DNA from: Algibacter lectus
Lineage (GTDB): Bacteria > Bacteroidota > Bacteroidia > Flavobacteriales > Flavobacteriaceae
Direction: 5' to 3'
Assembly: GCF_900112395.1 (NCBI RefSeq)
Contig: NZ_FOLN01000001.1
Location: 434,001-498,000 of the forward strand
Length of the DNA stretch: 64,000 nt
Shown here: piece by piece, positions 27,540-54,545 of the stretch
Numbering within the stretch: position 1 is the first letter of the stretch
How the letters are laid out: each line of letters opens with the position of its first letter
Program-made: the position numbers and the translations under genes
Notes under the pieces: generated by a model
What the model saw: the letters and a program-made list of their open reading frames with translations, nothing else
The model's database searches: none
What the model was told of the DNA's origin: nothing

Positions 27540-27567
27540 TATTATTTTATTTAAAATTAGACAATGA

Positions 27568-36812: not shown

Positions 36813-39800
36813 CTATTTCTTTACTGTTTGGATAGTTACAGGCCCTAATAGTCCTGATGAAATCAATTCCTCTTCTTTTTTGGCACTATCAACAATAACC
36901 CAAGTAGTTCGCACATCTTTATCTAATTCTCGGTCTCCCGTCAATCTGTTTCTCCAAACATTAACCACTTCTATTTCTATAGTATTTTCGCCATTTTTAA
37001 GAGCAGAAGTTGCGTTTAATTTAAAAGGAGCGATCCATGTGGTACCTATATTTTTTCCATTAATTTTCACAGATGCCATAACTCCAACTTTTCCTAAATC
37101 TATATACACATTTGTCATTTCTTCTTCTTTAGAATACTTAAAATTAGATGTATAAACAGCAGTACCTGAATAGAACTTTATTGTATCATTTTCACTTTCA
37201 ATCCAATCTGTTAATTTAGGAAGTTCTAAAACTTGTTTTGGTCCAATGTCTTTGTTTTTAAAATCAACCTTCCATGGATTATTTAATGTTTGAACGATAT
37301 TGGTTTCAGGAAAATTACTTTCACTTTTTAATGTTTCACCCATGTTATTTGATGTACTAAAAACAACAAACCAACTTTGTAAAGCTTCCATTTTTATTGG
37401 TACTGCTGTACGGTCATTTAGTTCTTTAAAATCAGGTAAATCTTTAATTGTTCCATTAATGGCATCCCAAAGTTGAGGTTTCATCCCTTTTACTCTAAAT
37501 GAAGGTGTAAACTCAATTGCTTTATCACTCTGATTGGTTAAGAAATAAATTTCTATTCCTGGCATTGTTCGGTGTGTCCAAAGCACAGATGCTTGTCCGT
37601 TTAAATCAACATCTTTATCAATATTTAATTTTGTAAGTGCCTCTTGTAATTCCAAACCATCAGCAATAGCCCCTTGCCCATACGTTTTTAATACTTCGTC
37701 GCTAGATCCCCACATTTTATTGGCTATTTCTTTAACCTTGATATCACTTTCCGGGTAGTTTTGCAAACTTGGAGATTTTTTAGGCGCTTGTCCATAAATT
37801 TTCCCACCTTGACTAACTAAAGTTTCTATTTTCTCTAAAAGTTCTGGTCTCATGGTATCAAACGGTGGCAACACCATTAAACTATAACTCATACCATCAG
37901 GCAATACAAATTTGCCATCTTTAACTGTCAACTTATCTAAAATAACCTCAGCATTAATATAATCATAGGAATAGCCTTCTGGTAATTCAGGGTTTCTAAC
38001 ACCAGTCATTATTGGTGCATCTTCGCCTATAAAATAGCACACGTCTGCAGCATACTGACCTTGTTGTAGCATATGCTGTGATCTTCTCAAATAATCAAAA
38101 TAAGCTTTCGATTTTTTAAACCATGTATTATGGCGATTAAATTCTGTACTAAACCAAGCATTAACACCTGGCACCCTATTATCGTCTGGTTGATGAATGT
38201 ATAAATGCAGTACAAAATGATTAATACCTTCGGTTAAAGACCAATCGCCTCGTTTTTTTAACATTGCTGGGTGCCTAACATATGAACGTTGTCCTGCTGT
38301 AAAAGCTTCAGCAGACACTCTGTTTTTCCCATAAATGTGAGCAGCAGACGATGCCGACTTACATTCAATATCTCCTAAAGTGCCTTCATTCCAAAACTCG
38401 CCACTTACCAGATCCGACTGCCCTCCATACATTAAAAACTCTGAAGGAAACCCCCAATGTCCATAGTTTTCTAACCACAATTGCAAATTATCCTCATTAC
38501 TTGACTCTCTAAGCCCACCTGTATATTCATAAGCTACGGCATCTGCAATAGAGCGACGTAAATCCCATAAAAAACGTTCAGATTCTTCCACACTTCCTAC
38601 AATTCTGCCTGTAAAAACAGGTAAGTATTTTATAGGGCTATAACCAAATTTGGCTTCAAATTTTTCAGCATAACCATCTGTCCAGTTTTGCGACCCCATT
38701 TCATAACTATCTGCAATAACATATTTAAAAGCACTTTTGCTTTCTTCTGGAATTCGTTTTAAAAATTCTCCAATAAATTGTTTGTAATGAAATTGAGCCA
38801 AGGCTTTATTAGCTTTATCAACCTCATACCCTTTTCCTTGCGGTGCCGATGGTGAATTTTTTGTCCCGGTTGGAGTCATCCCAAAACGCTGAATGGTCCA
38901 CAAACCTGCAGGAGCTTCCCAATTAAGTTTTCCATTAGCATCCATTTTATCGCTGATATTAATAACTGCGTTAGAACCCACTTTTAAAGCCGAATCTACA
39001 GATTCTTGCTGATTCCATTTATAACTATCCCAAGCCGGAAATGGTGTTGGGTGCATTTTTGCTAAACTTTTTCTAGCATAACTTTCCATTCCTGAAGCTT
39101 CTGAAATAGAAACCTCTGCTAGATCCCATTCACCTTTTTGCTGAGCAGGGTTCCCTTTTATTAATTGTTTAAATGTAATTTTAAAACTGTTAGATTTTGT
39201 GTTTGGTAAACTTATTAATAATGGGGCATATTTATCTGCGCCCACATTAGGTGTTAGTTTTCTTCTGTCAAATGTAAATACTTTAATTTTTTTATAAGCA
39301 CCATCAATTTGCGCAAAAACCTCCCCACTTAAAAACATGTTTTTTCTACCCGGAATAATGCGCAAACTATTAGCGTTTAATGCTTTTTCTGTAGTTAATT
39401 CAATTTCATAATTACCGACGCTATTTGAAAAACTGGCTACAGATACCGTATCAGCATCTATAAGATTCATAGCGTTTTTGATACTCGGTTTTACCACAAT
39501 TTTGGTGTTTTTTACTGAAGTCGTATTCGCTTCGTAACCTATTGACGGGAACGCTAAAACATAAGTATCTTGGAATTCTTTTTCAGGTTGTACCAAATTT
39601 AAATCTATAGTTTTACCGCCTTCAACTTTCACTTCAGAATACGTTACATAGCGCATCGCCATTTCTGATGTTATCCAAGGACCTCCTGATTGACTCCATC
39701 CTGGACAGTTAAATGCTCCTATATCAACACCAATACGCTTTCCTTCATTTACAGCGTGTACCATATGGCTCCACCAATCTTCACTTAGCATAGGCACTTT

Positions 39801-40076
39801 ACCATCTTTTTCATCAGGATTTATATTTCCTATTAAAGCGCCACCAATACCAGCAGCTTTCATAGCTTCTAAATCTTTGGTAATTCCATCTTTAGAAATA
39901 TCATCGCCAATCCAATACCAATAACACCATAATGTATTGTCTTCCGAAGGGGTTACAAATCCGGTTTTCAACTTCCCTAAATCGGGCTTTTTAACTTCAT
40001 TCGGTGTTTCGCAACTATGGAATATAAATGCGGTTAAAACTATGATAATTTTAAAATTTTTCAATAGAAAATTCAT
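36813..40076 (-). CDS. GH106 alpha-L-rhamnosidase lipoprotein
   Basis: Large exo-alpha-L-rhamnosidase of family GH106 (1087 aa). A lipobox ends at Cys22 (FIFHSC). The N-terminal family signature WCYWYWIGDDISKDGITKDLEAMKAAGIGGALIGN (about 50-85) and the NCPGWSQSGGPWIT segment mark the TIM-barrel start. Next come inserted beta-domains, the barrel's second half with SYEMGSQNW and the SAEAFT strand, and a C-terminal beta-sandwich (about 930-1087) with a sugar-binding-like IDLGKVGVMASVKINGKNIG segment. It is the first gene of a five-gene operon driven by operator site 7, with the next gene 6 bp away. GH106 enzymes act on alpha-linked rhamnose in complex pectin and algal glycans; the linkage here is unknown. 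Confidence 0.93.
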   Translation of the reverse strand: MNFLLKNFKIIIVLTAFIFHSCETPNEVKKPDLGKLKTGFVTPSEDNTLWCYWYWIGDDISKDGITKDLEAMKAAGIGGALIGNINPDEKDGKVPMLSEDWWSHMVHAVNEGKRIGVDIGAFNCPGWSQSGGPWITSEMAMRYVTYSEVKVEGGKTIDLNLVQPEKEFQDTYVLAFPSIGYEANTTSVKNTKIVVKPSIKNAMNLIDADTVSVASFSNSVGNYEIELTTEKALNANSLRIIPGRKNMFLSGEVFAQIDGAYKKIKVFTFDRRKLTPNVGADKYAPLLISLPNTKSNSFKITFKQLIKGNPAQQKGEWDLAEVSISEASGMESYARKSLAKMHPTPFPAWDSYKWNQQESVDSALKVGSNAVINISDKMDANGKLNWEAPAGLWTIQRFGMTPTGTKNSPSAPQGKGYEVDKANKALAQFHYKQFIGEFLKRIPEESKSAFKYVIADSYEMGSQNWTDGYAEKFEAKFGYSPIKYLPVFTGRIVGSVEESERFLWDLRRSIADAVAYEYTGGLRESSNEDNLQLWLENYGHWGFPSEFLMYGGQSDLVSGEFWNEGTLGDIECKSASSAAHIYGKNRVSAEAFTAGQRSYVRHPAMLKKRGDWSLTEGINHFVLHLYIHQPDDNRVPGVNAWFSTEFNRHNTWFKKSKAYFDYLRRSQHMLQQGQYAADVCYFIGEDAPIMTGVRNPELPEGYSYDYINAEVILDKLTVKDGKFVLPDGMSYSLMVLPPFDTMRPELLEKIETLVSQGGKIYGQAPKKSPSLQNYPESDIKVKEIANKMWGSSDEVLKTYGQGAIADGLELQEALTKLNIDKDVDLNGQASVLWTHRTMPGIEIYFLTNQSDKAIEFTPSFRVKGMKPQLWDAINGTIKDLPDFKELNDRTAVPIKMEALQSWFVVFSTSNNMGETLKSESNFPETNIVQTLNNPWKVDFKNKDIGPKQVLELPKLTDWIESENDTIKFYSGTAVYTSNFKYSKEEEMTNVYIDLGKVGVMASVKINGKNIGTTWIAPFKLNATSALKNGENTIEIEVVNVWRNRLTGDRELDKDVRTTWVIVDSAKKEEELISSGLLGPVTIQTVKK

Positions 40077-40120: not shown

Positions 40121-40166
40121 TAAATAAACACATAAATGTTATAAAATCTATCCTGCCCTTTACTGC
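40121..40166 (-). promoter_or_regulatory. PUL operator/promoter element, site 7
   Basis: Minus strand GCAGTAAAGGGCAGGATAG (40166-40148), with -7-like TTTATTTA (40128-40121) 19 nt after GGATAG. It drives the GH106 operon. Confidence 0.68.
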
Positions 40167-40372: not shown

Positions 40373-41683
40373 ATGAACAGAAATAAACTTATTTTTTTAG
40401 GCATCATATTACTTACAATCTTACCATTGTTAAATAGCTGTCAAAAGGACTCCGATATTGAAGATATCCAAAAAGAAGAGGAGGAAGAAACTCAAAATGG
40501 AACTTTTGAAATCATCTCAGAATCTAATCCTAGAATTACAACACACCATTTAGCATCTGGCTCATCTGGATTTCAAATTGGTATTACCTCAAATGCTGGT
40601 GGTGTAATCAATGAAGTGATTATTCCTGGTTTAGGCGATATTATGGATAAAGAAGCCGATCTATATGGTAGAGCTGGACAAGTAGCCATTAGGGACGCTT
40701 CTCATGGCGGGCGATATAACCCCACTCAAGCCGGTTTTAATGAAACCTTAGGCTCAAAATGTGAAATTACTCAATCCTCAGATTATAAAACGCTAGTAGT
40801 TGAACCAAGACCGTTGGCGCTTTGGCATGGTGATGGGCAATATGACTTTACAAGATGGGAAAATGTTGGGGCCGATCCATACAAAACTGATGGCGGAAAT
40901 ACCGATGAAGATGGATTAGATGAGGAAGATTTACCTGGAAAACAATTGGATGAAGTACGAAGTGAATTCGATTATTATGGCACTTACCAAGACCTTTCTG
41001 GTAAAAATGGCATTGATATAGCCATCATACGTCATTACTACCAAATATCCTTTATCCGTCCGCCAGGACATTGCATCAATCAACATAGAGCTGGCACAAA
41101 ACTATGGAACGCCAATGCGGTTCAGCCTGATATTTCAAGAAATGCTCCTGATGGTGTACATCAAGGATCTGACAAGGATATGAATAGAATGACGAGCGTT
41201 TGGTCTTTAAGACATGACAGGGCTAAATGGACGCCAACCTACACCTATTATAGAAAAACAAACGGACAATGGGAAACACTTATTATGGATGATGTTGGTA
41301 AAACTGATGATGAGTTTCCAAATGGCGATCATACCCTATTTATAAATGCTGAATCTAATATTGAAACAGTAGGCAGAGCATTAGCAATTTATCGTCCTAA
41401 AACAGATATTAATAAAAATATGATTATAGGCCTTAATGAAACAGATGGAAGCATTAGTTATAAAGACAATAGAGCTGTTAAGGATGTCATACAATATTCC
41501 CCTAAGCGGATTGCTTCTATGAGTAAATATGGGTTTGCAAACATTATTAGAGGTATGATCAACAGGACACGATTAGATTCAAATACTTATGAAGCCTTTA
41601 GAAATGAAATTTATATACTTTATGGCACACCTCAGGAAATTATGGATGCTATTGCACTTTTGGATGTTAGTTTGGGTATTTAA
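40373..41683 (+). CDS. Lipoprotein of unrecognised PUL family, member 1
   Basis: 436-residue lipoprotein (lipobox Cys23, LLNSC) of a family I cannot name. It is clearly homologous to the protein at 50058. Shared blocks are GGVINEVIIPGLGDIM, YGRAGQVAIRD..GG.YNPTQAGF, DG.YD.T.WENVGADPYKTDGGNTD, SEFDYYGTYQDLSGKNG.IAIIRHYYQ and a region containing the MNR.TSVWSLRHD-type segment. The invariant Asp, His, Arg and Tyr residues in these blocks look like an active or binding site, and the fold is probably all-beta. It is divergent from the GH106 at 36813 and has its own operator. A carbohydrate-active enzyme or glycan-binding role is inferred from context only. Confidence 0.75.
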   Translation: MNRNKLIFLGIILLTILPLLNSCQKDSDIEDIQKEEEEETQNGTFEIISESNPRITTHHLASGSSGFQIGITSNAGGVINEVIIPGLGDIMDKEADLYGRAGQVAIRDASHGGRYNPTQAGFNETLGSKCEITQSSDYKTLVVEPRPLALWHGDGQYDFTRWENVGADPYKTDGGNTDEDGLDEEDLPGKQLDEVRSEFDYYGTYQDLSGKNGIDIAIIRHYYQISFIRPPGHCINQHRAGTKLWNANAVQPDISRNAPDGVHQGSDKDMNRMTSVWSLRHDRAKWTPTYTYYRKTNGQWETLIMDDVGKTDDEFPNGDHTLFINAESNIETVGRALAIYRPKTDINKNMIIGLNETDGSISYKDNRAVKDVIQYSPKRIASMSKYGFANIIRGMINRTRLDSNTYEAFRNEIYILYGTPQEIMDAIALLDVSLGI

Positions 41684-41792
41684 TTTAAAATGAAAAAATA
41701 TTTAAATACTAAAAAATGATGATAAAATTAATAAATATCTTCAATTTCAGAAAAAATCACTCAAATTACACCTGGTTCAGCTTAAAGATAGC

Positions 41793-41837
41793 ACAGGAAC
41801 AGCAGGATGCGAATTACATAGTGGAATTTTATATTTG
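41793..41837 (+). promoter_or_regulatory. PUL operator/promoter element, site 9
   Basis: ACAGGAACAGCAGGATGC (41793-41810), then 19 nt and a perfect TATATTTG (41830-41837), 30 nt before the FAS1 gene. Confidence 0.75.
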
Positions 41838-41867
41838 CTTTAACAAATAAACTAAAACCTTGTAAAT

Positions 41868-42878
41868 ATGAAAACATTAAGCTATCTAAAAAAAATATCT
41901 TTAATCGCATTAGCGACTTTTGTAATTTCATCTTGTGAAGAAGACGGTATTACTCAAATTAAGAATGATGACGCTATAAATACTGAAGAACTGAATATTA
42001 TTGAAATTTTAAGTGCGGATCCAAATTTTAGTTCTTTTGTTGCATTTTTAGAGGAAGCTAACCTAACTACTGTTTTAGCTGCGGATGGAAAGAAAACCAT
42101 ATTAGCGCCAACAAATGACGCTTTTGAAAATTATATTGATGATAATGATTTTCTTAGTTTTGAGGATATACCAGATACAGCTTTAACCGAACTTTTATTA
42201 AACCACGTTATACCAGATAGCAGTTACACGACTACAGGCCTTAAAGCGCTAAGAACTGGATATGATAAAACTTTGGCAACGGGACCAAATAATACTAACG
42301 TAAGCATCTTTTTTAATGGAATATCAGGATTAGCCTTTAACGGTGTGCCAGTAACTGGTAATCAAATTAACGCTAAAAATGGCACTATACATGTTGTAAA
42401 TGGTGTTGTTCCTCCAGCTACACTTGCAGTATTAATTGGCTCAAATCCCAGCTTTTCGGGTTTAGTTGATGCTATTATTCATGTAGAAGATTCAGGCTCT
42501 CCAACGCTTCAACCATCATACTTTGAAATATTAAATAATCAAACTTCAGGGCCTTATACTGTTTTTGTGCCATTAGGCTCCGCTTTTAATACTTTAAAAA
42601 GTAATTTAGGAGTTCAAAATATAGAAGATATCCCTACAGAAACAGTTGACGCTGTTTTGTTAAGACATATTGTTAATGGAATAACACCAATTGACGGGTT
42701 TGTTGATGGAGAAATAACAACTTTAGATGAAGGAACAATTACTGTAAATATGGCTGGTTTAACACTTACAGACAAGGACGGTACTGGCAGAATACTTCCA
42801 GCAATAAGTGACTTACAAGCTACAAATGGTATTTTACACGTTGTAAATAGAGTCATTGGAGAAACGACAAAGGAATAA
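41868..42878 (+). CDS. Lipoprotein with two fasciclin (FAS1) domains
   Basis: 336-residue lipoprotein (lipobox Cys23, VISSC) carrying two FAS1 domains, at about 45-175 and 185-332. Each has the typical core: TILAPTNDAFENYI with LLLNHVIPDSSYT and NGTIHVVNGVV in the first, and TVFVPLGSAFNTLK with LLRHIVNG and NGILHVVNRVI in the second. FAS1 domains mediate adhesion and polysaccharide or cell-surface binding, and occur in SusCD-associated proteins of marine Bacteroidetes. It has its own copy of the locus operator (site 9) and a strong terminator, so it is a single-gene unit of the same regulon. It may be a glycan-binding or surface adhesion component. Confidence 0.88.
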   Translation: MKTLSYLKKISLIALATFVISSCEEDGITQIKNDDAINTEELNIIEILSADPNFSSFVAFLEEANLTTVLAADGKKTILAPTNDAFENYIDDNDFLSFEDIPDTALTELLLNHVIPDSSYTTTGLKALRTGYDKTLATGPNNTNVSIFFNGISGLAFNGVPVTGNQINAKNGTIHVVNGVVPPATLAVLIGSNPSFSGLVDAIIHVEDSGSPTLQPSYFEILNNQTSGPYTVFVPLGSAFNTLKSNLGVQNIEDIPTETVDAVLLRHIVNGITPIDGFVDGEITTLDEGTITVNMAGLTLTDKDGTGRILPAISDLQATNGILHVVNRVIGETTKE

Positions 42879-42910
42879 GTGAATTTATTAACTATAAATT
42901 ATGTTCTTTT

Positions 42911-42944
42911 AAAAAACGCCTTAAGAAATTAAGGCGTTTTTTTT
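42911..42944 (+). terminator. Rho-independent terminator after FAS1 gene
   Basis: Perfect 14-bp stem AAAAAACGCCTTAA / TTAAGGCGTTTTTT with a GAAA loop, ending in a T-run, 32 bp after the stop. Confidence 0.92.
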
Positions 42945-43066
42945 ATGTATTTAGGTCCCTAATACCACACCAAGTGATTCCTGTGGTAGCGTGGGAATAA
43001 AGCCCTAACTCTCGCTCGTTTATAACGAGTGCCGTCTAAAACATCAAACCTTTACCTTTTTATTAA

Positions 43067-43112
43067 ACATGAAGCAACAGGATACTAAAACCTATTTAAA
43101 ATCCTAATATTG
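43067..43112 (+). promoter_or_regulatory. PUL operator/promoter element, site 10
   Basis: ACATGAAGCAACAGGATAC (43067-43085), then 19 nt and TAATATTG (43105-43112), 50 nt before the GH78 gene. Confidence 0.7.
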
Positions 43113-43162
43113 TTAGTAATAATTATGGCATAGTATTACTCAACCCAAAAGTATTAGTACAA

Positions 43163-45991
43163 ATGAATAAAAAAATAGTGCTTCTTTTTCTACTAACCCT
43201 AGTATTTTCTTGTAAAAAAACTAACGAAGGTATTTCTATTAAAAAAGTAACCGTAAACTATTTTGAAACCCCTTTAGGAATTGATGATCCACATCCAAGT
43301 ATCAGTTGGTTCATGGTTTCAAATGAAAGAAACAAGAAACAATCTGCATACCAAATTAAAGTCGCTAGTTCTGAAAAAGCCCTTGAAGATGATAATAACC
43401 TGTTATGGGATTCTGGTAAATTAAATTCACATCAAAACTCACAAATTCGTTACGCAGGTAGCAAACTGAATTCGAGACAACATTGCTATTTCAAAATCAA
43501 AGTTTGGGACGAAAATGATGTCGCTTCAGAATGGAGTGACACAATTTTTTGGACTATGGGTTTACTAAATCAAACGGATTGGAAAGCAAAATGGATTGGT
43601 TTTAAAACAGACGATAAGAATAAAAAAGACACTTTACACTTACCTCCTGCTCCATATTTAAGAAAATCATTTTCTGTTAACAAAACAATCCAAAAAGCCA
43701 CACTTTATGTCACGGCATTAGGTGTTTTTGAAATAGCATTAAATGGAGAAAAAATAGGACAAGATTTATTAACGCCTGGATGGACTAACTATAATAAACG
43801 CATCTATTACAAAACCTATGATGTTAGTAATACTATAAACCAAGGAGAAAACACGCTAGGTGCTATTTTAGGCGACGGTTGGTATTCCGGTTATGTTGGC
43901 CCAAAAGTATTATCAAAACCAAGAAATAGAGAACTCTACGGATTGCATCCAGCATTATTATCTCAGTTAGAAGTTGAATATGAAGATGGCACCAAAGAGA
44001 TTATCGTTTCAGATGAAAGTTGGAAAGCTAAGGAAGGCCCCATAGTTTACGCAGATTTACTTATGGGAACTGGTTATAACGCTAATTTAGAATTACCCAA
44101 TTGGAATACTTCTAATTATGACGACCAAAATTGGGATAACGTATACATTCACGAAGGGACAAAAGGTGTGCTTCAAGCCTATCCAGGAAATAGCATACAA
44201 ATTTATGATGAATTAAAACCTGTAGAAATTACAGAACCAACCAAAGGAACTTATGTATTTAACATGGGACAAAATTTTGCTGGTCATACACGTTTACAAG
44301 TACAAGGAAACAAAAACGACACGATTATCATGCGTTTTGGAGAACGTTTATATGATGATGGCAAATTAATGACCGAAAATTTAAGATTTGCCCGAGCAAC
44401 TGATACTTACATTTTAAAAGGTGAAGGTGTTGAAATATGGGAACCAAAATTTACATATCATGGTTTTCAATATGTTGAGGTTACTGGACTAAAAAACAAA
44501 CCAGACCATAACACCATAACGGGTATCTCTTTTGGCTCGTCCATACCAATGGAAAGTTCATTTACATCTTCTGATACTATCTTAAATAAAATGTTTGAAA
44601 ATGTGATTTGGACACAGCGTTCTAATTTCATGGAAGTTCCAACAGACAGTCCCCAACGCGATGAGCGTTTAGGTTGGTTGGGCGATGTTCAAATTTTTTC
44701 TAAATCGGCATTATACAATGCTAATCTTGGTGCTTTTAATAAAAAGTGGTTTGCAGATGTTCGCGATGCACAATATGATTTTGGACCTTATTCAGTGTTT
44801 GCACCCCAACCCTACCCCAAATTAGAATGGTTTTCTCCAGGTTGGATGGAAGCAGGTGTTATGGTGCCTTACAATACTTATAAATTTTACGGAGATACTA
44901 AAATAGTAGAAGACCATTATGAATCCATGACTCGCTTTATGGATTATCATATAGAAAAAAGTAAAGACGATAAATTTTATCCTGAAGATTCATGGGCAGA
45001 AGCTAAACCAAAAGGCGGCTTTGGAGATTGGCTATCCATGACCGACAAACATCTGGCACACGATATTATGGCGTCGATGTATTATCAATATGCTCTAAAG
45101 ATAATGGCTGAAATGAGTCGTGCCATAGGTAACCAAGAAAAGGCTGATTATTATCAATCCACTTATAAAACTTCAGTAGCTGCATTTATAAAACATTATT
45201 TAGATGAAAACGGAAAATTTATAATTGACGAAACTATTTATGGAGACGGGAAAGGTTATTTTGAAGGCGAAAAAGGATTTACAGGACATACTCAATCGGC
45301 TTACGCTACAGCCATTTATTTTGATATTCTCCCCGAAGCACTAAAAATAAAAGCGGGAGAACATTTAGTAAATCTTTTAGAAGAAAATGATAATTTACCC
45401 TCCTCAGGTATTTTAGGAATTCGACAATTACTTCCTGCACTTTCTAAAATTGGTCGTTCAGATTTAGCATACAAGATATTACTTAAAAAAGAATATCCAA
45501 GTTGGGGCTTTCAAATTGCTAATGGAGCCACAACTATTTGGGAACGATGGAACAGTTACACACCCGAAAAAGGGTTTAATGGCGAAATGAATGCCAAAAT
45601 GAATTCTTTTAACCATTATGCTTTTGGCGCTTTTTCTCAGTTTCTGTTTAGTGATATGGCAGGAATCAATACGAAAGATGCTGGCTTTAATAAGATTATT
45701 ATTCGTCCGAAACTAGGCGATAAATCATTAACTAATGTACATGGTGAATATGGTTCCATAAATGGTAAAATTGTGTCTTCTTGGTCTATAAATGACAATA
45801 CATTTTCATTAGACGTTGAAATTCCTGTAAACACCACAGCGAAAGTATTTGTTCCTGCCAAGAAAGATTATACTATTAAAGAAAGTAGCACTCCAATTAC
45901 TGGAAAAAAATTAAAAATATTAGAAAGAGATGGCATCTACCAAGTCTTAGATATTGGCTCTGGAAGTTACTCTTTTAAATCTGAAATATAA
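43163..45991 (+). CDS. GH78 alpha-L-rhamnosidase lipoprotein
   Basis: 942-residue alpha-L-rhamnosidase with lipobox Cys17 (LVFSC). The domain order is as in the other GH78 enzymes here: Fn3-like, beta-sandwiches, (alpha/alpha)6 barrel, C-terminal beta domain. The catalytic segment is DSPQRDERLGWLGD with Asp495, Glu501 and Asp508, and the late Glu794 is in TIWERWNSYT. The Cys usually found after the first Asp is Ser. It is the close partner of the GH78 at 22975, which is secreted rather than lipid-anchored, so the pair may act in different compartments. It has its own operator (site 10) and is followed 7 bp later by a sulfatase gene, forming a rhamnosidase-sulfatase operon. Confidence 0.94.
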   Translation: MNKKIVLLFLLTLVFSCKKTNEGISIKKVTVNYFETPLGIDDPHPSISWFMVSNERNKKQSAYQIKVASSEKALEDDNNLLWDSGKLNSHQNSQIRYAGSKLNSRQHCYFKIKVWDENDVASEWSDTIFWTMGLLNQTDWKAKWIGFKTDDKNKKDTLHLPPAPYLRKSFSVNKTIQKATLYVTALGVFEIALNGEKIGQDLLTPGWTNYNKRIYYKTYDVSNTINQGENTLGAILGDGWYSGYVGPKVLSKPRNRELYGLHPALLSQLEVEYEDGTKEIIVSDESWKAKEGPIVYADLLMGTGYNANLELPNWNTSNYDDQNWDNVYIHEGTKGVLQAYPGNSIQIYDELKPVEITEPTKGTYVFNMGQNFAGHTRLQVQGNKNDTIIMRFGERLYDDGKLMTENLRFARATDTYILKGEGVEIWEPKFTYHGFQYVEVTGLKNKPDHNTITGISFGSSIPMESSFTSSDTILNKMFENVIWTQRSNFMEVPTDSPQRDERLGWLGDVQIFSKSALYNANLGAFNKKWFADVRDAQYDFGPYSVFAPQPYPKLEWFSPGWMEAGVMVPYNTYKFYGDTKIVEDHYESMTRFMDYHIEKSKDDKFYPEDSWAEAKPKGGFGDWLSMTDKHLAHDIMASMYYQYALKIMAEMSRAIGNQEKADYYQSTYKTSVAAFIKHYLDENGKFIIDETIYGDGKGYFEGEKGFTGHTQSAYATAIYFDILPEALKIKAGEHLVNLLEENDNLPSSGILGIRQLLPALSKIGRSDLAYKILLKKEYPSWGFQIANGATTIWERWNSYTPEKGFNGEMNAKMNSFNHYAFGAFSQFLFSDMAGINTKDAGFNKIIIRPKLGDKSLTNVHGEYGSINGKIVSSWSINDNTFSLDVEIPVNTTAKVFVPAKKDYTIKESSTPITGKKLKILERDGIYQVLDIGSGSYSFKSEI

Positions 45992-45998
45992 AAAACAT

Positions 45999-47906
45999 AT
46001 GAAATTACTATCCTTTTTTTTGATATCTACCATGTTCCTGAATGCACAACATCAGGATACTATGAAACAAGCTACTAAACCAAACATCCTTTGGATTGTT
46101 TCAGAAGATCACGGTCCACATATGGGTGCTTATGGCGATACATTTGCTACTACTCCAAACATAGATAAATTTGCAAAGAAAGGCATGTGTTTTAATTACG
46201 CATGGTCTTCTGCCCCAGTTTGTGCTCCTGCTCGAACCACACTCTGGTCTGGCATTTCTGGACCAAGTTCAGGAGGAGAGCACATGCGTAGTATGTCTCC
46301 TTATCCTACGGAGAAAAATATGTTTCCTAAATATCTCCGAGATATAGGATATTACTGTTCCGGAAATGGAAAAGAAGATTACAACCTAAGTACTCCTAAA
46401 GGGGTTTGGGATGAATCTTCTAACAGAGCACATTACAATAAGCGCAAACCCGGACAACCCTTTTTTGCTTATTTTAATAATACACAAAGTCATGAAGGTC
46501 ATATACATGACATAACTCGAACTGCTAAAAACAAGAGAAAACCATCTTTACACGACCCAGCCAAAGTAAAATTACCAAAATACCATCCAGATTGTGAAGC
46601 TATGCGATTAGAATGGGCTGCTTATTATAATAGTATTACTGTGGTAGACTCTATTGCGGGTAAACGTCTTGCTGAACTTGCAGAAGCTGGATTAGAAGAT
46701 AATACTATTGTTTTCTATTTTGCCGACCATGGCGGTGGACTTGCACGTAATAAACGTTGGCCTAATAATGCCGGGCTTCAAGTACCAGTAGTGGTTTATT
46801 TTCCTGAGAAATGGAAACATCTTGCTCCTAAAGAATATAAAGCTGGTGGGCGGTCTGATCGTTTAATAAGTTTTGTGGATTTCGCACCAACCATGCTTAG
46901 TATTGCGGGTATTGAGCCACCTAAATGGATGCAAGGACATGCTTTCGCAGGAGATTATCAAACTGAAGAGCAACCATTAGTTTACGGGTTTCGTGGACGT
47001 ATGGACGAACGGTTAGACTTAGTAAGAAGTGTTTCTAACGGACGCTATGTTTATCTTAGAAATTACATGCCCCAGTTTTCACAAGGGCAACGTTTAGAAT
47101 CACAAATTCGTTTACCTTTTTCTTCTACAGCAGCATGGAAAAAGCTTTATGACCAAGGAAAACTCAACAAGGCACAAAGTCTTTTTTGGGACACACCAAA
47201 GGCTCCTGAAGAACTTTACGATTTAAAAAACGATCCAGATGAAGTAAATAACCTTGCCAAATCTAAAGCACATCAAGATATTCTAAAAAAAATGCGTAAA
47301 GCACAACAAGATTACGCGCTTGCTATTCGAGATGTTGGATTTATTCCAGAGCATGAACGATTTAATACTAATATGGCACCTTATGATTTTGGACATAATG
47401 AGAAATTATATCCTTTTGAACGCATATTTTCTACAGCTGAAATAGCTTCATTTATGAATCCGGATGATGTGTGTGAACTACAAAAAAGAATGACCGATGA
47501 GAACATTATTGTGAGATATTGGGCCACTATGGGCATGATGATGCACGGTAAAAAAGCCGTATCAAAAAGTAAAAAAGCATTAAAAAAGGCACTATCAGAT
47601 ACTTCTGATGATGTAAAAATTGCAGCAGCTTGGGCTTTGGTTAAATACGGTGATGACCCTGAGACTTCTAAAGAGGCATTAGTACTGCTTTCCGAATTAA
47701 CGCAAAGAAAAGACAATGTATTTGTTGTAATGTCTGCACTTACTGCTCTTGATGATTGTGGGATAAAAACCGCTAGCTTAAAGCATGAATTTGCAAATTG
47801 GTCTACAACTCCGGAAGCTCCCAACAAACGCTATGCTGCATATCCACAACGATTGATGAAAAGTATTTTACTGAGGTATGGTATCCCTGTTAAAAATGTT
47901 AAATAA
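45999..47906 (+). CDS. S1-family sulfatase with C-terminal HEAT-like repeats
   Basis: 635-residue sulfatase from the ATG at 45999. This start leaves a clean signal peptide (MKLLSFFLISTMFLNAQ), whereas a longer frame from 45954 lies inside the GH78 gene. PNILWIVSEDHGPHMGAYG opens the metal site, C75-A-P-A-R is the formylglycine motif and YFADHGGG closes the metal site. After the sulfatase domain (about 25-445) a helical region (about 465-620, PDDVCELQKRMTDENIIVRYWATMG, then SDTSDDVKIAAAWALVKYGD) resembles HEAT repeats, a combination seen in some marine Bacteroidetes sulfatases. It follows the GH78 by 7 bp and ends at a bidirectional terminator. The extra domain may bind a partner or long substrate. 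Confidence 0.92.
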   Translation: MKLLSFFLISTMFLNAQHQDTMKQATKPNILWIVSEDHGPHMGAYGDTFATTPNIDKFAKKGMCFNYAWSSAPVCAPARTTLWSGISGPSSGGEHMRSMSPYPTEKNMFPKYLRDIGYYCSGNGKEDYNLSTPKGVWDESSNRAHYNKRKPGQPFFAYFNNTQSHEGHIHDITRTAKNKRKPSLHDPAKVKLPKYHPDCEAMRLEWAAYYNSITVVDSIAGKRLAELAEAGLEDNTIVFYFADHGGGLARNKRWPNNAGLQVPVVVYFPEKWKHLAPKEYKAGGRSDRLISFVDFAPTMLSIAGIEPPKWMQGHAFAGDYQTEEQPLVYGFRGRMDERLDLVRSVSNGRYVYLRNYMPQFSQGQRLESQIRLPFSSTAAWKKLYDQGKLNKAQSLFWDTPKAPEELYDLKNDPDEVNNLAKSKAHQDILKKMRKAQQDYALAIRDVGFIPEHERFNTNMAPYDFGHNEKLYPFERIFSTAEIASFMNPDDVCELQKRMTDENIIVRYWATMGMMMHGKKAVSKSKKALKKALSDTSDDVKIAAAWALVKYGDDPETSKEALVLLSELTQRKDNVFVVMSALTALDDCGIKTASLKHEFANWSTTPEAPNKRYAAYPQRLMKSILLRYGIPVKNVK

Positions 47907-47952
47907 AAAACACTCCTAATTAAAAATCTAAGTTTTTAATTAGGAGTGTTTT
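47907..47952. terminator. Bidirectional terminator between convergent operons
   Basis: A perfect 20-bp stem (AAAACACTCCTAATTAAAAA with TTTTTAATTAGGAGTGTTTT) around a 6-nt loop, placed between the convergent sulfatase (+) and EthD (-) genes, with A and T runs on both sides. Confidence 0.93.
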
Positions 47953-47976
47953 CTTGTGTTTTTTCATAAGAAATAT

Positions 47977-48300
47977 TTAAATTTTAACGGTACTTATTTG
48001 AAAATAGGGTTGCACATTAGTGTAGTTTTTTATATCTCCCATAATCTCTTCCATATAAGGCTCAAAAGCATTGTGCATGTCATCTAAAGTGTCAAAATAC
48101 AAATGGCCGATAGCCATGAAAGGTTTTTCAGAATCTCTATCAAAAGCACTTAAACCTTCTTCTACAGCAGCATGTTTCATTGCATCTCCTAAAAACTTAG
48201 CAACCATTGGAGTATGCGTATTACAATAATAGTCGATATCAAAATAACTACCTTCTGTATTTGGATACAACGCACTTAATTTTATCATTCCTTTTTTCAT
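47977..48300 (-). CDS. EthD-domain protein
   Basis: 107-residue protein of the EthD/dimeric alpha-beta barrel family: KLSALYPNTEGSYFDIDYYCNTHTPMVAKFLGD at the N-terminus, and FMAIGHLYFDTLDDMHNAFEPYMEEIMGDIKNYTN at the C-terminus. There is no signal peptide, so it is cytoplasmic. Such proteins bind or transform small hydrophobic or carbonyl compounds; none is an established polysaccharide enzyme. Its ATG overlaps the stop of the upstream sulfatase by 4 bp (ATGA), so the two are translationally coupled under operator site 11. A role in rhamnose or sugar-aldehyde metabolism is possible but unsupported. Confidence 0.85.
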   Translation of the reverse strand: MKKGMIKLSALYPNTEGSYFDIDYYCNTHTPMVAKFLGDAMKHAAVEEGLSAFDRDSEKPFMAIGHLYFDTLDDMHNAFEPYMEEIMGDIKNYTNVQPYFQISTVKI

Positions 48301-49766
48301 AATTTATATTTGGTATTATTAATATTTCTCTTTCCTGATGCTTCATAAGATAAATGTCCTGTAGACCCTTCACCTAAAATCTCATAGTGCTCTTGAGGTA
48401 TTTCAGCGCGATGCTTTTCAATAACATGAACATATTCGAGGTTGTTTATAGCGTTGTGCCATTCTTGTGGATCAATCTTATGATTATAAAATTCTTCAGA
48501 ACCATCTTTATACTGAATAAAACGATAGTCTTCAGAAGTTATAGAATAGTTACCAGGACCGAAACTCGTTCGTGCATAGTGAGACCAATCAGCATTTGTG
48601 TTTTTCAATAATGGCACTAAAGAATGTCCTTCTAGTTTTGAATCTGATTTTAGATTTGTCAATTCCAATAACGTAGGATAGACATCCAACAATTGTACAG
48701 GTTTATTACAAACTTTTCCTTTTTCAATACCTGGACCAACAATAATTAAAGGCACTCTAGTACCATCTTCCCATAAACTTCGTTTGGCATAACGTTCTTT
48801 TTCTCCTAAATGAAATCCATGATCGCTGAATAATACAATATATGTGTTATCGCCATATTCGCCATTATCCAGAGCGGTAATCACGCGTCCTACTTGTTCA
48901 TCTACAAAACTTACACACGCCAAATAAGATTGCACAAGAGGTTTCCAAGCATCATTTTCTAAAACCCATTCATGAGTTGGAGACACGTGCTTTTCTCTTG
49001 TAATATCTATTCCATAAGGTGAAATATCGTCCAAATCATCTGATATAGTTTTTGGTAATTGAAGAGTTTCTAATGGATACATATCAAACCATTTTTGCGG
49101 TGCAAATTGTGGCACATGCGGACGATAAAAACCAACCCCCATCCAAAAGGGCTTATCGTAATTTTCTTTTAATTTACTTTCTGCCCAAGAGGCTATTTTA
49201 TAATCTGGCATTTGATTATCTGTCTCTGGAAAAGCACCCCAATCCCATAATGGATGCCCTGGATATGTACTAATTTTTTCTTTTGGCATAGGCCCAAAAC
49301 CTCCAAATTGTCCGGCGTAATTTGGAATATGAGTTTCGTTTATCCCTTCGCCATTGTGCAATAATTTACCGCCTCCAAAAACAGTATAGCCTTCTTGCTG
49401 AAATCGCTTTGGCATCACAATATTTTTACTTGCTATAGGCGAATCTTTAATGTCTGGATTTAAAAAATAAATCCCTGAAGTACTTGGGTATAAAGACGTC
49501 ATCATACTTGCTCTGGAAGGATTACAAACAGGTGCTTGACAATGTGCATTACTAAAAAGCACACCTCGGGAAGCTAATTTATCCATATTAGGTGTTTTAG
49601 CTTGCGGATGTCCACCCAAAACACCTATCCAATCATTAAGATCGTCTACAGCTATAAATAAAACATTTGGTTTTTCCAATGATTGACCTCCCCCCGTTTT
49701 CTGATTAGAATTACAAGCTCCTAAAGCAAAAATTAATACTAAAACAAATACTGTTTTTTTTATCAT
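48297..49766 (-). CDS. S1-family sulfatase (iduronate-2-sulfatase-like) lipoprotein
   Basis: 489-residue sulfatase with lipobox Cys18 (ALGAC). KPNVLFIAVDDLNDWIGVLGGHPQAKTPN opens the metal site, C81-N-P-S-R (CQAPVCNPSRASMMT) is the formylglycine motif and FSDHGFHLGEKERYAKRSLWEDGTRVPLI contains the late metal site and lysine. The DDLNDW and FHLGEK patterns are typical of the iduronate-2-sulfatase-like branch. If the substrate is ulvan-like, it may act on sulfated uronate or rhamnose, but the position is not deducible. It is first in a two-gene unit with EthD, and divergent from the unknown-family protein at 50058. Confidence 0.93.
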   Translation of the reverse strand: MIKKTVFVLVLIFALGACNSNQKTGGGQSLEKPNVLFIAVDDLNDWIGVLGGHPQAKTPNMDKLASRGVLFSNAHCQAPVCNPSRASMMTSLYPSTSGIYFLNPDIKDSPIASKNIVMPKRFQQEGYTVFGGGKLLHNGEGINETHIPNYAGQFGGFGPMPKEKISTYPGHPLWDWGAFPETDNQMPDYKIASWAESKLKENYDKPFWMGVGFYRPHVPQFAPQKWFDMYPLETLQLPKTISDDLDDISPYGIDITREKHVSPTHEWVLENDAWKPLVQSYLACVSFVDEQVGRVITALDNGEYGDNTYIVLFSDHGFHLGEKERYAKRSLWEDGTRVPLIIVGPGIEKGKVCNKPVQLLDVYPTLLELTNLKSDSKLEGHSLVPLLKNTNADWSHYARTSFGPGNYSITSEDYRFIQYKDGSEEFYNHKIDPQEWHNAINNLEYVHVIEKHRAEIPQEHYEILGEGSTGHLSYEASGKRNINNTKYKL

Positions 49767-49811
49767 GATTCCAGTTAAAATTAAAGACTCAATCGATATA
49801 ATTTATAGCTA

Positions 49812-49857
49812 TAAATAAAAGAAATAAAACAACCATAACCATCCTGTAAAACCCTGT
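49812..49857 (-). promoter_or_regulatory. PUL operator/promoter element, site 11
   Basis: Minus strand ACAGGGTTTTACAGGATGG (49857-49839), with -7-like TTTATTTA (49819-49812) after 19 nt, 45 nt before the sulfatase start. Confidence 0.7.
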
Positions 49858-49921
49858 CGGGTCAATATTTATCTATTAACATAAATATTTCAAAGCAAAC
49901 TTCTGTAATCCACTTTATTCC

Positions 49922-49966
49922 ACAGATTCTACAGGATGAATATTAAAAAAAACACTGTTAATTTCA
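49922..49966 (+). promoter_or_regulatory. PUL operator/promoter element, site 12
   Basis: ACAGATTCTACAGGATGA (49922-49939), with -7-like TAATTTCA (49959-49966) 19 nt after GGATGA. The start codon is 91 nt further on, a longer leader than at most other sites. It shares ACAGATTCTACAGGAT with site 14. Confidence 0.7.
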
Positions 49967-50057
49967 CAACCAAGTAGAAGGCAACCTTCTACTTACCACA
50001 TTTTTTAATTAGAGTGAAAGTCAACTCTAATTTTCAGATTAAAAATTTAGAATCCAA

Positions 50058-51608
50058 ATGAAAAAACTATTACTATTAATTATTGTTGCAAGTATGAGTA
50101 ATTTAGGAAACTCTCAAGAGTTTTTCATTATCAAGAAAAACACAGCTAAAAGAGGGTATGTTACACACAGTATAAACTCGGGAGGTTTTATAGTTGGAAT
50201 CAATAGTTTTGGTGGTGGCTACATTACACAAATTGAAATGCCAGGACTTGGAAATATTATGGGTTTTCAAGCGCAAAGATATGGTCGTGGCGGGCAATCT
50301 TCAATTCGCGATATGGGTAGAGGTGGTCAATGCAACCCTACTCAAGCTGGTTACAGTGACCTTTTAGGTACAGAATGTGCTATCACTACAGTATCAAGTA
50401 GTAAATTGGTAATTCCTAGTCGTGGTTGTGCTTTTTATAACGGAGATGGTGGCTACGACTATACAGAGTGGGAAAATATAGGAGCAGATCCGTACAAAAC
50501 AGATGGAGGTAATACCGATATTGATAATATTACCGAATCGAACCCAGCTATTTCAGTCACTATTAATGGTAAAACCTTTGGAAGACAACAAGCCGAGGTA
50601 TATAGTAATTTCGATTATTATGGCGAATATGAAGACTACACTACAAAAGTAGGACTTGCTATACCAGCTATTCGTCATTATTTGGAATATCGTTTTGTAA
50701 GGTCGTCTATAGGACCAAATTCTGGAATGAAACAATTTAATGAACAAGGACTAAAAGCTGCTGGAAAATGGAATGACAGTAAATTTTTATCAGATATTTC
50801 TGTTGAAAACCCTGTAGGTGTCCATCCTGGTGGACTTGATAATATGAACAGTATTATTTTATCTTGGAGTATTAGAAACGATGTAGCTACTTGGAATCCA
50901 GGCTACCGATACCAACAAAAACAAAACGGAGATTGGGAAATTAAAGATCGTCAAAAACAATTTCAAGGTAAGATAGAGCAATTAAAACTTCGATTTATTG
51001 TTGCAGATTCCAATGATGAAAACTCAGGAAATGCTTTAGGTTTTTATTTACCTCTATCGTATCTCAATGAATTTAATGTTGTTGGTATAAAAGAGTCAGA
51101 TAACTCAGAAGTCTATGTGGATAATAGAACAACTTCCGATTTTTATTTGGATGGACAATACCGTACACCTTCTATGTCTTGGATTGGTTTTAGAAGTGAA
51201 TTGAACGGCTTAATTGATAGATCGAAACTAACCGGTCAATATGCAGGTGTTTATGAAAAACTAAGACAAGAATCCATATTGCTTCATGGCACTCCAGCCG
51301 AAATTAAAGCCGCTTTTACGCAATTAGACACCTATTATGCTAGTTTACTTTCTGCTTCGGATTTTGAATACAAAAACAAAGATGATTTTCAACTCTTCCC
51401 AAACCCAGCCGAAGATCAAATAAACATTGTTTTAAATAACACAAATAACAATTCTAAAATAAGTGTTTTCAATGCGCTTGGTGCACTTGTTTATTCCTCA
51501 AATGAAATAATTGGTAACAAAATTTCAATACCAACAAACCAAATTGGAGCTACAGGATTATACTTTGTAAAGGTTGGGACTTTAACAAAAAAGCTTATTC
51601 TAAAATAA
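50058..51608 (+). CDS. Secreted protein of unrecognised PUL family, member 2 (T9SS)
   Basis: 516-residue homologue of the lipoprotein at 40373, but with a Sec signal peptide (about 1-19, LGNSQE) and a T9SS type A sorting domain (about 440-516, FQLFPNPAEDQINIV to GLYFVKVGTLTKKLILK). It is therefore exported by the T9SS and probably released or surface-attached. The conserved core (about 25-420) has GGYITQIEMPGLGNIMG, YGRGGQSSIRD..RGGQCNPTQAGY, YNGDGGYDYTEWENIGADPYKTDGGNTD and FDYYGEYEDYT. It is the first gene of a five-gene unit with GH106, sulfatase, GH78 and a broken GH43. Two family members with different export routes, each next to a GH106, argue for a real role in degradation. The activity is unknown. 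Confidence 0.78.
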   Translation: MKKLLLLIIVASMSNLGNSQEFFIIKKNTAKRGYVTHSINSGGFIVGINSFGGGYITQIEMPGLGNIMGFQAQRYGRGGQSSIRDMGRGGQCNPTQAGYSDLLGTECAITTVSSSKLVIPSRGCAFYNGDGGYDYTEWENIGADPYKTDGGNTDIDNITESNPAISVTINGKTFGRQQAEVYSNFDYYGEYEDYTTKVGLAIPAIRHYLEYRFVRSSIGPNSGMKQFNEQGLKAAGKWNDSKFLSDISVENPVGVHPGGLDNMNSIILSWSIRNDVATWNPGYRYQQKQNGDWEIKDRQKQFQGKIEQLKLRFIVADSNDENSGNALGFYLPLSYLNEFNVVGIKESDNSEVYVDNRTTSDFYLDGQYRTPSMSWIGFRSELNGLIDRSKLTGQYAGVYEKLRQESILLHGTPAEIKAAFTQLDTYYASLLSASDFEYKNKDDFQLFPNPAEDQINIVLNNTNNNSKISVFNALGALVYSSNEIIGNKISIPTNQIGATGLYFVKVGTLTKKLILK

Positions 51609-51665: not shown

Positions 51666-54545
51666 ATGAAAAATAAATTTTCAAGACCTGCACATTACAG
51701 TCATATTTCATTACTGTTTTTATTGATTTTATCAAGTTGTTTAGCACAGAACGGATTAGAAAAAGCCTTTTTAAATCCACCAGAATCAGCAGGCGCACAT
51801 ACCTGGTGGCATTGGGTTGATGGAAACGTATCCAAAGCAGGAATTACCAAAGATTTAGAATCGTTTAAAAAAGTAGGCTTAAGTGGTTTTCAATTATTTG
51901 ATGTTGGTCTAAGACTACCTCATGGAGGCACCGTATTTAATTCAAAAGAATATCATGATAAAGTTACATTTGCTATTGCAGAAGCAGAACGTTTAGGTTT
52001 AGAAATGGGAATTAATAGTGCTTCGGGTTGGTCAAGTACCGGAGGTCCATGGATTACACCTGAAAACTCCATGAAAATGTTGGTTTGGAGTGAACACGAA
52101 GTAAGTTCAAAAACAAGTAGCCCAATTAAACTTAAACGTCCTGAGTTGAATGAAAAGCAACAAAGTCATGATTTTTATAAAGATGTTGCCATCATTGCTT
52201 TTCCAAAACCTAAAAACGCCACATTTAGAGTATCAGATTGGGAAGCAAAATCATTAACCGACCTTAAAGCAAAGGCAGATCAATTTATTCCCTCTTTAGA
52301 AAACGCACCAAAAGATGCCATAATAAACCTAGATGACATTCTAAACTTAACTGATAAAATGGGTACGGATGGAACGCTTAACTGGACACCACCATCTAAA
52401 GACTGGGTGGTATTAAGGATTGGCTATACTACAACAGGTGCGCAAACTAGACCTGCATCAAAAGGTGGTATAGGTTTAGAACTAGATAAATTAAGTAAGG
52501 AAGCTGTTACTATGCATTGGGAAGCATTACTAGATAAAATAACAGAGGATGCAAAGGGCAGTAAAGCATACACCACAATTCTTATAGATAGTTACGAAGT
52601 TGGACATCAAAATTGGACAGCAAACTTTGAAGACACTTTTAAAGAAAAGCGTGGTTATGATTTAATTCCTAGATTACTTTGTGCAACAGGACGTGTTTTA
52701 GAAAGTACTGAATATTCTGAACGTGTTTTGTGGGATTTCAGAAAAACTGTTGCTGATGAAATGTATGAAAACTACTTTAAATTCTTCAAAGAAAAATGTC
52801 ATAAAAACGGACTTAAATTAGCAACAGAGCCCTACGGCTCTGGGTCTTTTGATGCTGCGCAAGTAGGGAAACTTGTTGATATTCCTATGACTGAATTTTG
52901 GCACAAAGATAAAGCTAAGGGTCAAAGAAATATTTGGAAATGGACTAGCCATATGACGTCTTCAGCGGCACATTTATCAGGAAGATCCGTTGTTGGAGCA
53001 GAAGCATTTACTAGAATGAAAGGAGATTGGACGGTACATCCTTACAATTTGAAAGTTATAGGGGACAAGGCCTTTACCGAAGGTATTAATCGTTATTATT
53101 TCCACACATCGGCACATCAACCTTGGAGTGATAACATCAAACCAGGCATGACCATGAGTCGATTTGGGTCTAATATGCACCGAAACAACACCTGGTTTTA
53201 TCAGTCTAAACCATGGCTTGACTATATTGCTAGATGTCAATACATAATGCAAACAGGAACGAACCAAGCAGATGCATTGGTTATGTATGGTGATGAACGT
53301 GGATTTAATAATTTTTTAGGAAGAGTAGAACGTTTGGATTTTGACTTTTTAGAAGGTTATAAATTTGACGTAGCTGGTATTGATTCTTTAGATGACTTAA
53401 GTGTTGATGAAAATGGAGAAATTAGAGTAAGCTACGAAGGGAAGTTATTGGATACAAAATACAAAATGCTCTCTTTAAAAAGAGATCTCTTAATGCGAAT
53501 AGAATCTATCAAAAAACTTGGAAAACTAGCTGAAGATGGAGCTATTGTAATTGCTCAAAAACCAATAAGAACTCCGGGAATAGAAACCAATCCAAACGCA
53601 ACTAAAGAATTTAATACATTGGTTAAGAAATATTGGGACTCGGGACTGATCCATTTACCATCAACCTATAAAAAATCATTAAGTGCAGTAACTCCAGATT
53701 GCAAATTGCCTATAGGAATGGAGTATGTTCACCATAAAATTAACGATGGTGACTTCTATTTTGTATCCAATCAATCTTATGATTCAAAGAAAGGGACGTG
53801 CATTTTTAGAGTAACAGGAAAACAACCAGAACTATGGGATCCTGAAACAGGCGAAATTTCTAAAAACCTCAACTGGAAACAATTGAAAGACGGAACTACT
53901 GAAGTTGAATTATCTCTAACTTCTGCACAATCTATATTTGTTGTATTTCAAAAGGAAACTAAAAAAACAAATGGATCTTATACCTACCCAACTTATAAAA
54001 CCATTCAAAATATTAACAGAGGCTGGCATGTAACTTTCGATAAAAATTTTGGAACAAACGAAACGATACCATTTAAAAAATTAAAACCATGGAATGAACA
54101 TACCAATGAGGCTATAAAATATTATTCTGGTACCGCTACTTACAAAACAAGTTTTGAATTTAAGACAAGTACAAATAAGAAATCAATACTTTTAGATTTA
54201 GGACAAGTTGCCGTAATAGCAGAAATTAAATTAAATGGAAAAGATCTTGGAACATTATGGAAACCCCCATTCCAAGTAGACATAAAAGATGTTCTGAAGA
54301 AAGGAACAAATACTCTAGAAATTAAAGTGACAAACCTTTGGCCAAACCGTCTTATTGGAGATGCACAATATCCTAAGTTTAAAGAATCTAATAAAACACT
54401 TCCTAGTTGGATCGAAAAGGGAACGGGAATTCCTGAATCTTCAAAGCGTAAAACATACGCTGCTCATAATCATTTTAAGGCAGATGATGACCTTCTAACT
54501 TCTGGATTAATAGGTCCAGTTACAATTATGAAAAGTACAGATTGA
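51666..54545 (+). CDS. GH106 alpha-L-rhamnosidase lipoprotein
   Basis: 959-residue GH106 enzyme with lipobox Cys25 (LILSSC). The signature WWHWVDGNVSKAGITKDLESFKKVGLSGFQLFDVG (about 47-81) and SASGWSSTGGPWITPENSMKM match the family. The central IDSYEVGHQNWTANFEDTFKEKRGYD and VVGAEAFTRMKGDW segments are shared with the GH106 at 36813, and the C-terminal beta-sandwich (about 800-959) carries ILLDLGQVAVIAEIKLNGKDLG. It is about 130 residues shorter than the other GH106, mainly in the region of inserted beta-domains. It lies 57 bp after the unknown-family gene, with the next sulfatase 25 bp downstream. It probably has a linkage specificity that complements the first GH106. Confidence 0.93.
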   Translation: MKNKFSRPAHYSHISLLFLLILSSCLAQNGLEKAFLNPPESAGAHTWWHWVDGNVSKAGITKDLESFKKVGLSGFQLFDVGLRLPHGGTVFNSKEYHDKVTFAIAEAERLGLEMGINSASGWSSTGGPWITPENSMKMLVWSEHEVSSKTSSPIKLKRPELNEKQQSHDFYKDVAIIAFPKPKNATFRVSDWEAKSLTDLKAKADQFIPSLENAPKDAIINLDDILNLTDKMGTDGTLNWTPPSKDWVVLRIGYTTTGAQTRPASKGGIGLELDKLSKEAVTMHWEALLDKITEDAKGSKAYTTILIDSYEVGHQNWTANFEDTFKEKRGYDLIPRLLCATGRVLESTEYSERVLWDFRKTVADEMYENYFKFFKEKCHKNGLKLATEPYGSGSFDAAQVGKLVDIPMTEFWHKDKAKGQRNIWKWTSHMTSSAAHLSGRSVVGAEAFTRMKGDWTVHPYNLKVIGDKAFTEGINRYYFHTSAHQPWSDNIKPGMTMSRFGSNMHRNNTWFYQSKPWLDYIARCQYIMQTGTNQADALVMYGDERGFNNFLGRVERLDFDFLEGYKFDVAGIDSLDDLSVDENGEIRVSYEGKLLDTKYKMLSLKRDLLMRIESIKKLGKLAEDGAIVIAQKPIRTPGIETNPNATKEFNTLVKKYWDSGLIHLPSTYKKSLSAVTPDCKLPIGMEYVHHKINDGDFYFVSNQSYDSKKGTCIFRVTGKQPELWDPETGEISKNLNWKQLKDGTTEVELSLTSAQSIFVVFQKETKKTNGSYTYPTYKTIQNINRGWHVTFDKNFGTNETIPFKKLKPWNEHTNEAIKYYSGTATYKTSFEFKTSTNKKSILLDLGQVAVIAEIKLNGKDLGTLWKPPFQVDIKDVLKKGTNTLEIKVTNLWPNRLIGDAQYPKFKESNKTLPSWIEKGTGIPESSKRKTYAAHNHFKADDDLLTSGLIGPVTIMKSTD

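Follow-up and report, generated by a model that had tools for sequence, protein, structure and literature searches.

The window analysed here is a 64,000-nt stretch of the Algibacter lectus genome (GCF_900112395.1, contig NZ_FOLN01000001.1, positions 434,001-498,000, forward strand). Two of its ORFs, called copy 1 and copy 2 below, encode proteins with a common core:

40373..41683, plus strand: copy 1, 436 aa; lipoprotein and, from its structural model, a candidate endo-acting glycoside hydrolase
40430..40441, plus strand: lipobox LNSC of copy 1, followed by QKDSD
40715..40735, plus strand: YNPTQAG block of copy 1, with N, P, T, Q, A and G invariant in alignment A3 (31 sequences)
40832..40954, plus strand: acidic conserved loop of copy 1, residues 154-194, with D154, D158, E163, D168, D178, D180, E184 and E194
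50058..51608, plus strand: copy 2, 516 aa; signal peptide, family core and type IX sorting tail
50331..50351, plus strand: CNPTQAG block of copy 2
51393..51596, plus strand: type IX secretion C-terminal sorting domain of copy 2 (PF18962, residues 446-513, E 9.9e-12; TIGR04183)

In a pairwise comparison the two are 41% identical across 413 aa (E 3e-94), by which measure they are true paralogues; the core domain is ~45 kDa in each. As the original prediction held, they share long conserved blocks, among them NPTQAG and WEN(V/I)GADPYKTDGGNTD, although the form YNPTQAG given there for both is found in copy 1 and not in copy 2, which reads CNPTQAG. Two export routes had also been proposed, and the signals agree: a lipobox in copy 1, a signal peptide and a PF18962/TIGR04183 tail in copy 2. 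The QKDSD that follows the copy 1 lipobox resembles the consensus C-X-K-(D/E)2, a surface export signal in Capnocytophaga (PMC5080379); to judge from these residues, the anchoring of lipoprotein copy 1 is probably at the cell surface.

Searches of Pfam, NCBIfam and PHROG gave no family for the core of either copy (the type IX tail alone matches), and 31 family members searched against Pfam gave only stray weak matches. Single-sequence and profile searches of the PDB likewise returned noise and no match for the core. The proteins had earlier been called unassignable, with an HMM search as the suggested check; for the shared part, this assessment holds.

The neighboring genes are largely concerned with rhamnose and sulfate:

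36813..40076, minus strand: GH106 alpha-L-rhamnosidase, divergent from copy 1 (PF17132, E 2e-211)
51666..54545, plus strand: GH106 alpha-L-rhamnosidase, 57 bp after copy 2 (PF17132, E 2e-178)
43163..45991, plus strand: GH78 alpha-L-rhamnosidase, between copies 1 and 2 (PF17389/PF05592)
20120-22873, 22975-25740 and 56053-58866: other GH78 genes (PF17389/PF05592)
48297..49766, minus strand: sulfatase, divergent from copy 2 (PF00884)
at 2701, 31112, 32927, 45954 and 54571: other sulfatases (PF00884)
26037..30696, minus strand: SusC/SusD pair, a TonB-dependent transporter and a SusD lipoprotein (PF07715, PF00593, PF07980)
4318-8253, 8558-12535 and 12558-15572: three proteins that carry G8 and CEMIP beta-helix domains and a T9SS tail

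Within the window the locus thus comprises four GH78, two GH106, six sulfatases, a GH3, a GH43, SusCD and three CEMIP-like proteins. A second SusCD and further sulfatases lie upstream of the window; downstream of it are a third copy of the family, a DUF1080-like protein (named at a first-pass reading of the sequence and not by a library match), two Gfo/Idh proteins with weak matches to a glycoside 3-dehydrogenase family, and sulfatases. Farther downstream come a bifunctional rhamnulose-1-phosphate aldolase (RhaD homologue; TIGR02632, exceeding the cut-off), an L-rhamnose isomerase homologue (TIGR02629, E 2e-151, under the curated cut-off), a rhamnulokinase-like FGGY kinase (a partial ORF) and an aldehyde dehydrogenase. 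This L-rhamnose catabolic operon points to L-rhamnose as the main product of the locus. Beside the third copy, the DUF1080-like gene, the two Gfo/Idh genes and a GMC oxidoreductase gene (L065:2169-6108 and window 62088-63806) suggest that the locus also has an oxidative route of 3-keto-glycoside type. Two more genes of the window, for a 319-aa protein without a Pfam match (35847-36806) and a PKD-domain protein (34735-35814), recur singly or together near family members in loci of Hyunsoonleella, Polaribacter, Flavicella, Algibacter, an uncultured Flavobacteriaceae and Pontiellaceae.

The window contains the motif ATCCTG-N5..7-CTG 12 times; 0.69 occurrences are expected, and none of 100 shuffles gave more than 3. 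Of the 12 sites, 10 fall in non-coding DNA, which makes up 9.4% of the window. Three concern the two copies directly:

40150..40165, plus strand: operator-like site between GH106 and copy 1
49841..49856, plus strand: operator-like site upstream of copy 2
49923..49937, minus strand: inverted operator-like site upstream of copy 2

These counts, with sites before both genes, bear out the earlier proposal of an operator shared by the two. The motif in fact precedes all three copies of the rhamnose locus; its distance upstream is 82-88 bp for the third copy (L065:500) and for the Algibacter miyuki orthologue (L020:9919). It is also found upstream of relatives in other genomes (L031, L033 and L042), of a large regulator-like ORF (ORF at L068:11145-15344, motif at L068:15565), and of SusC in the locus that has the fucosidase and a fourth copy (L067:4101).

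The genome has just two GH106 genes, one divergent and one co-directional, and each adjoins one of the window copies, as originally described. The two GH106 proteins are 32% identical to each other in an alignment of 760 columns. In 14 genomes, 13 of 25 family members have a GH106 gene within 10 kb (six of them within 1.2 kb), where uniform placement would give 0.58; this is a weak null, because both families live in polysaccharide loci. A rougher control, read off the window map, puts ~5 of the genome's 63 sulfatase matches within 10 kb of GH106. The link is confined to Flavobacteriaceae loci, with the exception of one Pontiellaceae gene. Members outside the Flavobacteriaceae often have no rhamnosidase nearby, and several are in genomes without GH106. 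The tie to GH106 seen in the original prediction is strong in the rhamnose loci of Flavobacteriaceae and missing for many other members, while a conserved extracytoplasmic family attached to a locus for rhamnose polysaccharide is supported. Linkage to GH106 was rejected as a family-defining trait, 12 of the 25 members being more than 10 kb away and some genomes GH106-free. GH106 and GH78 rhamnosidases share loci, presumed sugar and operator motif with the family but are unrelated to it in sequence: PF17132 is absent from both copies, and GH78 domains were likewise undetected in the family.

Four family members are encoded in the A. lectus genome (4.8 Mb), two of them in the window. The third lies ~0.6 kb beyond its end and is 66% identical to copy 2; the fourth, on another contig, is divergent (26% identical to copy 1), with a SusCD pair in front of it and an alpha-L-fucosidase close by. 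The fourth copy (locus L067:197-11527) has an additional N-terminal region and is possibly a fucan-directed relative. The family is very rare and patchy: it is present in only 4 of 60 genomes (that of the window and its relatives), with a single weak match among 394 other Bacteroidota genomes and one match among 288 other genomes of the phylum of the Pontiellaceae member. A contig scan gave 33 loci, from marine Flavobacteriaceae, Bacteroidales, Planctomycetota, Verrucomicrobiota, Kiritimatiellota and a few others. In a tree, copies 1 and 2 fall in separate well-supported clades, each with Algibacter miyuki and Flavicella orthologues, so the duplication is older than the genera Algibacter and Flavicella. 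In Pontiellaceae B12227 (L041:8825-11214; L060), one member is split across frames and another contains one internal TGA; these may be decaying copies or sequence errors.

Across 35 sequences (copy 1 numbering), invariant or nearly invariant polar residues are Q103, R107, D108, N116, Q119, D154, D158, D178, D180, E184, E194, Q237, R280, N347, Y363, R367, R379, E407 and E412. Of these, Q103, R107, N116, Q119, D154, D178, D180, E184, Q237, R280, N347, Y363, R367, R379 and E407 do not vary over several phyla. The acidic loop (residues 154-194) lies between strands and is modeled at lower confidence (pLDDT 56-83); it is proposed as an active-site and metal-binding loop, and its NTDEDGLDE pattern may correspond to a calcium loop, which it resembles. 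Most members keep H221 and Y222. The endo-1,3-fucanase Fun174A, of family GH174, is reported to require D119, E120 and E218 (PMC11943901).

An AlphaFold model of copy 1, built from alignment A3, has a mean pLDDT of 90.7 and a pTM of 0.92. Foldseek ranks a GH174 endo-1,3-fucanase first (E 5e-9), and in VIA-align the two GH174 structures score Z 20.4 and 20.1, with the best fold after them at 16.6. A Rubritalea member (~31% identical) was folded as a test for a quirk of the single model; its model (pLDDT 88.0) also has GH174 first, with Z 21.6 and 21.4 against 17.7, although the two models, while of different targets, are not fully independent, since their alignments share most rows. For Fun174A (8jd7) the scores are Z 20.4 (rmsd 3.2, 262 residues aligned) and Z 21.6 (rmsd 3.0, 259 aligned); over both GH174 structures, Fun174A and Fun174Sb (9k1g), the ranges are Z 20-21.6, rmsd 3.0-3.6 and 259-272 residues. 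GH174 enzymes act on sulfated 6-deoxy-L-hexose polymers, and the first of them, Fun174A, comes from a marine bacterium.

Most of the top 50 structural matches are galactose-mutarotase-like proteins or domains, placing the family in the supersandwich beta fold. Structure prediction with Foldseek had been suggested at the outset, and it leads to a carbohydrate-enzyme fold of this type whose nearest solved relatives are endo-acting. In sequence the family differs from GH174, with no match even when profiles were used: profiles A3, A4 and A5 were run with hmmsearch on the full set of PDB sequences, expected to include 8jd7 and 9k1g, and neither was listed at E up to 10, and the 394 Bacteroidota and 288 Pontiellaceae-phylum genomes held no sequences bridging the two. 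Its context also is rhamnose, not fucose. As far as the models indicate, then, the likeness to GH174 is one of fold and not of sequence-family membership. Aldose 1-epimerases, the GH36 N-domain, PL26 and PL4 share the fold class (Z 12-16), but with lower similarity, and the family differs from them in its longer conserved acidic loop and its exported single-domain core. The next-best fold match is the PBCV-1 (chlorella virus) capsid protein (8h2i_cB / 8h2i_cA; Z 16.6-17.7). The YidC and viral capsid matches were set aside, being of the same fold class with lower Z where scored.

Taken together, it seems somewhat probable that copies 1 and 2 are undescribed GH174-like endo-hydrolases that cut internal alpha-L-rhamnosidic bonds in a sulfated rhamnose-rich polysaccharide. 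From the computed family, fold, export signals, co-regulation motif and locus content we infer catalysis, endo mode, linkage and substrate, and a hydrolase is preferred because both models rank GH174 first, with a lead of ~4 Z units over any other fold. Fucose, like rhamnose, is a 6-deoxy-L-hexose, and the position of the fourth copy near an alpha-L-fucosidase and SusCD fits a lineage acting on polymers of such sugars. Copy 1, anchored as a lipoprotein probably on the surface, and copy 2, which leaves the cell by type IX secretion, would make the first internal cuts in the alpha-L-rhamnosidic bonds of rhamnan sulfate or an ulvan-like chain; SusCD would import the fragments, the sulfatases would desulfate them, GH106 and GH78 would trim them to L-rhamnose, and the downstream operon would catabolize it.

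The original prediction had put these proteins forward as the leading candidate for a missing endo-acting enzyme. This is fair, but it is not exclusive: the three secreted CEMIP-like proteins are competing candidates for the endo activity. The first of these has as its best PDB match the cell surface hyaluronidase 8c6i (E 7e-63). Such CEMIP/TMEM2-type hyaluronidases (G8 plus beta-helix) resemble the family in being exported, in their three copies in the same locus and in a possible endo-acting step, but are unrelated to it in fold and sequence. CEMIP-like proteins are unusual in a rhamnose locus.

The same fold class takes in non-catalytic domains, mutarotases and PL26 lyases, and activity does not follow from fold likeness alone. 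The proteins might be surface glycan-binding or CBM-like scaffold proteins without catalytic activity, holding the polysaccharide for neighboring enzymes; lipoprotein and type IX export, repeated copies and the lack of a fused catalytic domain would suit this, as would non-catalytic relatives among the fold matches (the YidC periplasmic domain and the PBCV-1 capsid protein). The top fold match is nevertheless an enzyme family, and the many invariant polar and acidic residues kept across phyla are more than binding proteins usually keep, making such a role rather unlikely. A lyase cutting Rha-GlcA bonds by beta-elimination, the step suggested originally, is unlikely. The mutarotase-like fold does also house lyases, including the PL26 exo-rhamnogalacturonan lyase (Z 14.5 and 15.7; no sequence match, profile against PDB sequences), and H221 and Y222 are kept in most members, but GH174 outscores PL26 by ~6 Z units and H221 is replaced by Phe in four members. 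In one relative (L032) the adjoining gene encodes a PF14099 lyase; a PDB search found no close solved relative over the catalytic part of this lyase, so it does not fix the substrate.

A uronate lyase needs a GH88 or GH105 unsaturated-uronyl hydrolase to act after it. No GH88 or GH105 was found within ~370 kb of the locus, which argues for a hydrolase and against a uronate lyase route; the lysis proposed in the original prediction is thus unsupported. An enzyme for another bond of the same polysaccharide (a side-chain glycosidase, exo-acting, or an epimerase-type enzyme) is a quite unlikely explanation: while the fold class includes aldose epimerases and accessory domains of exo-glycosidases, and the DUF1080-like and Gfo/Idh genes beside the third copy suggest a pathway of 3-keto-glycoside type, GH174 is the clear top match, and epimerases of mutarotase-like fold are usually cytosolic, while the family proteins are exported.

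For GH174-like endo-hydrolysis, a more specific proposal is that the proteins represent a new glycoside hydrolase family, a fold sister to GH174 with endo-alpha-L-rhamnanase activity on sulfated rhamnans; this is tentative, and we regard it as slightly doubtful. A literature search for endo-rhamnanase and rhamnan degradation, with many subscription papers outside its scope, found no prior description. Among the major polymers of green algae are rhamnan sulfate and ulvan, whose depolymerization by means other than lyases is, to our knowledge, little described. If the proposal is true, the family would provide the first endo-hydrolase for rhamnose backbones, and its gene would mark loci devoted to them. 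A single fold would then serve both fucan and rhamnan, one supersandwich lineage having diversified into endo-enzymes for fucose and rhamnose polymers.
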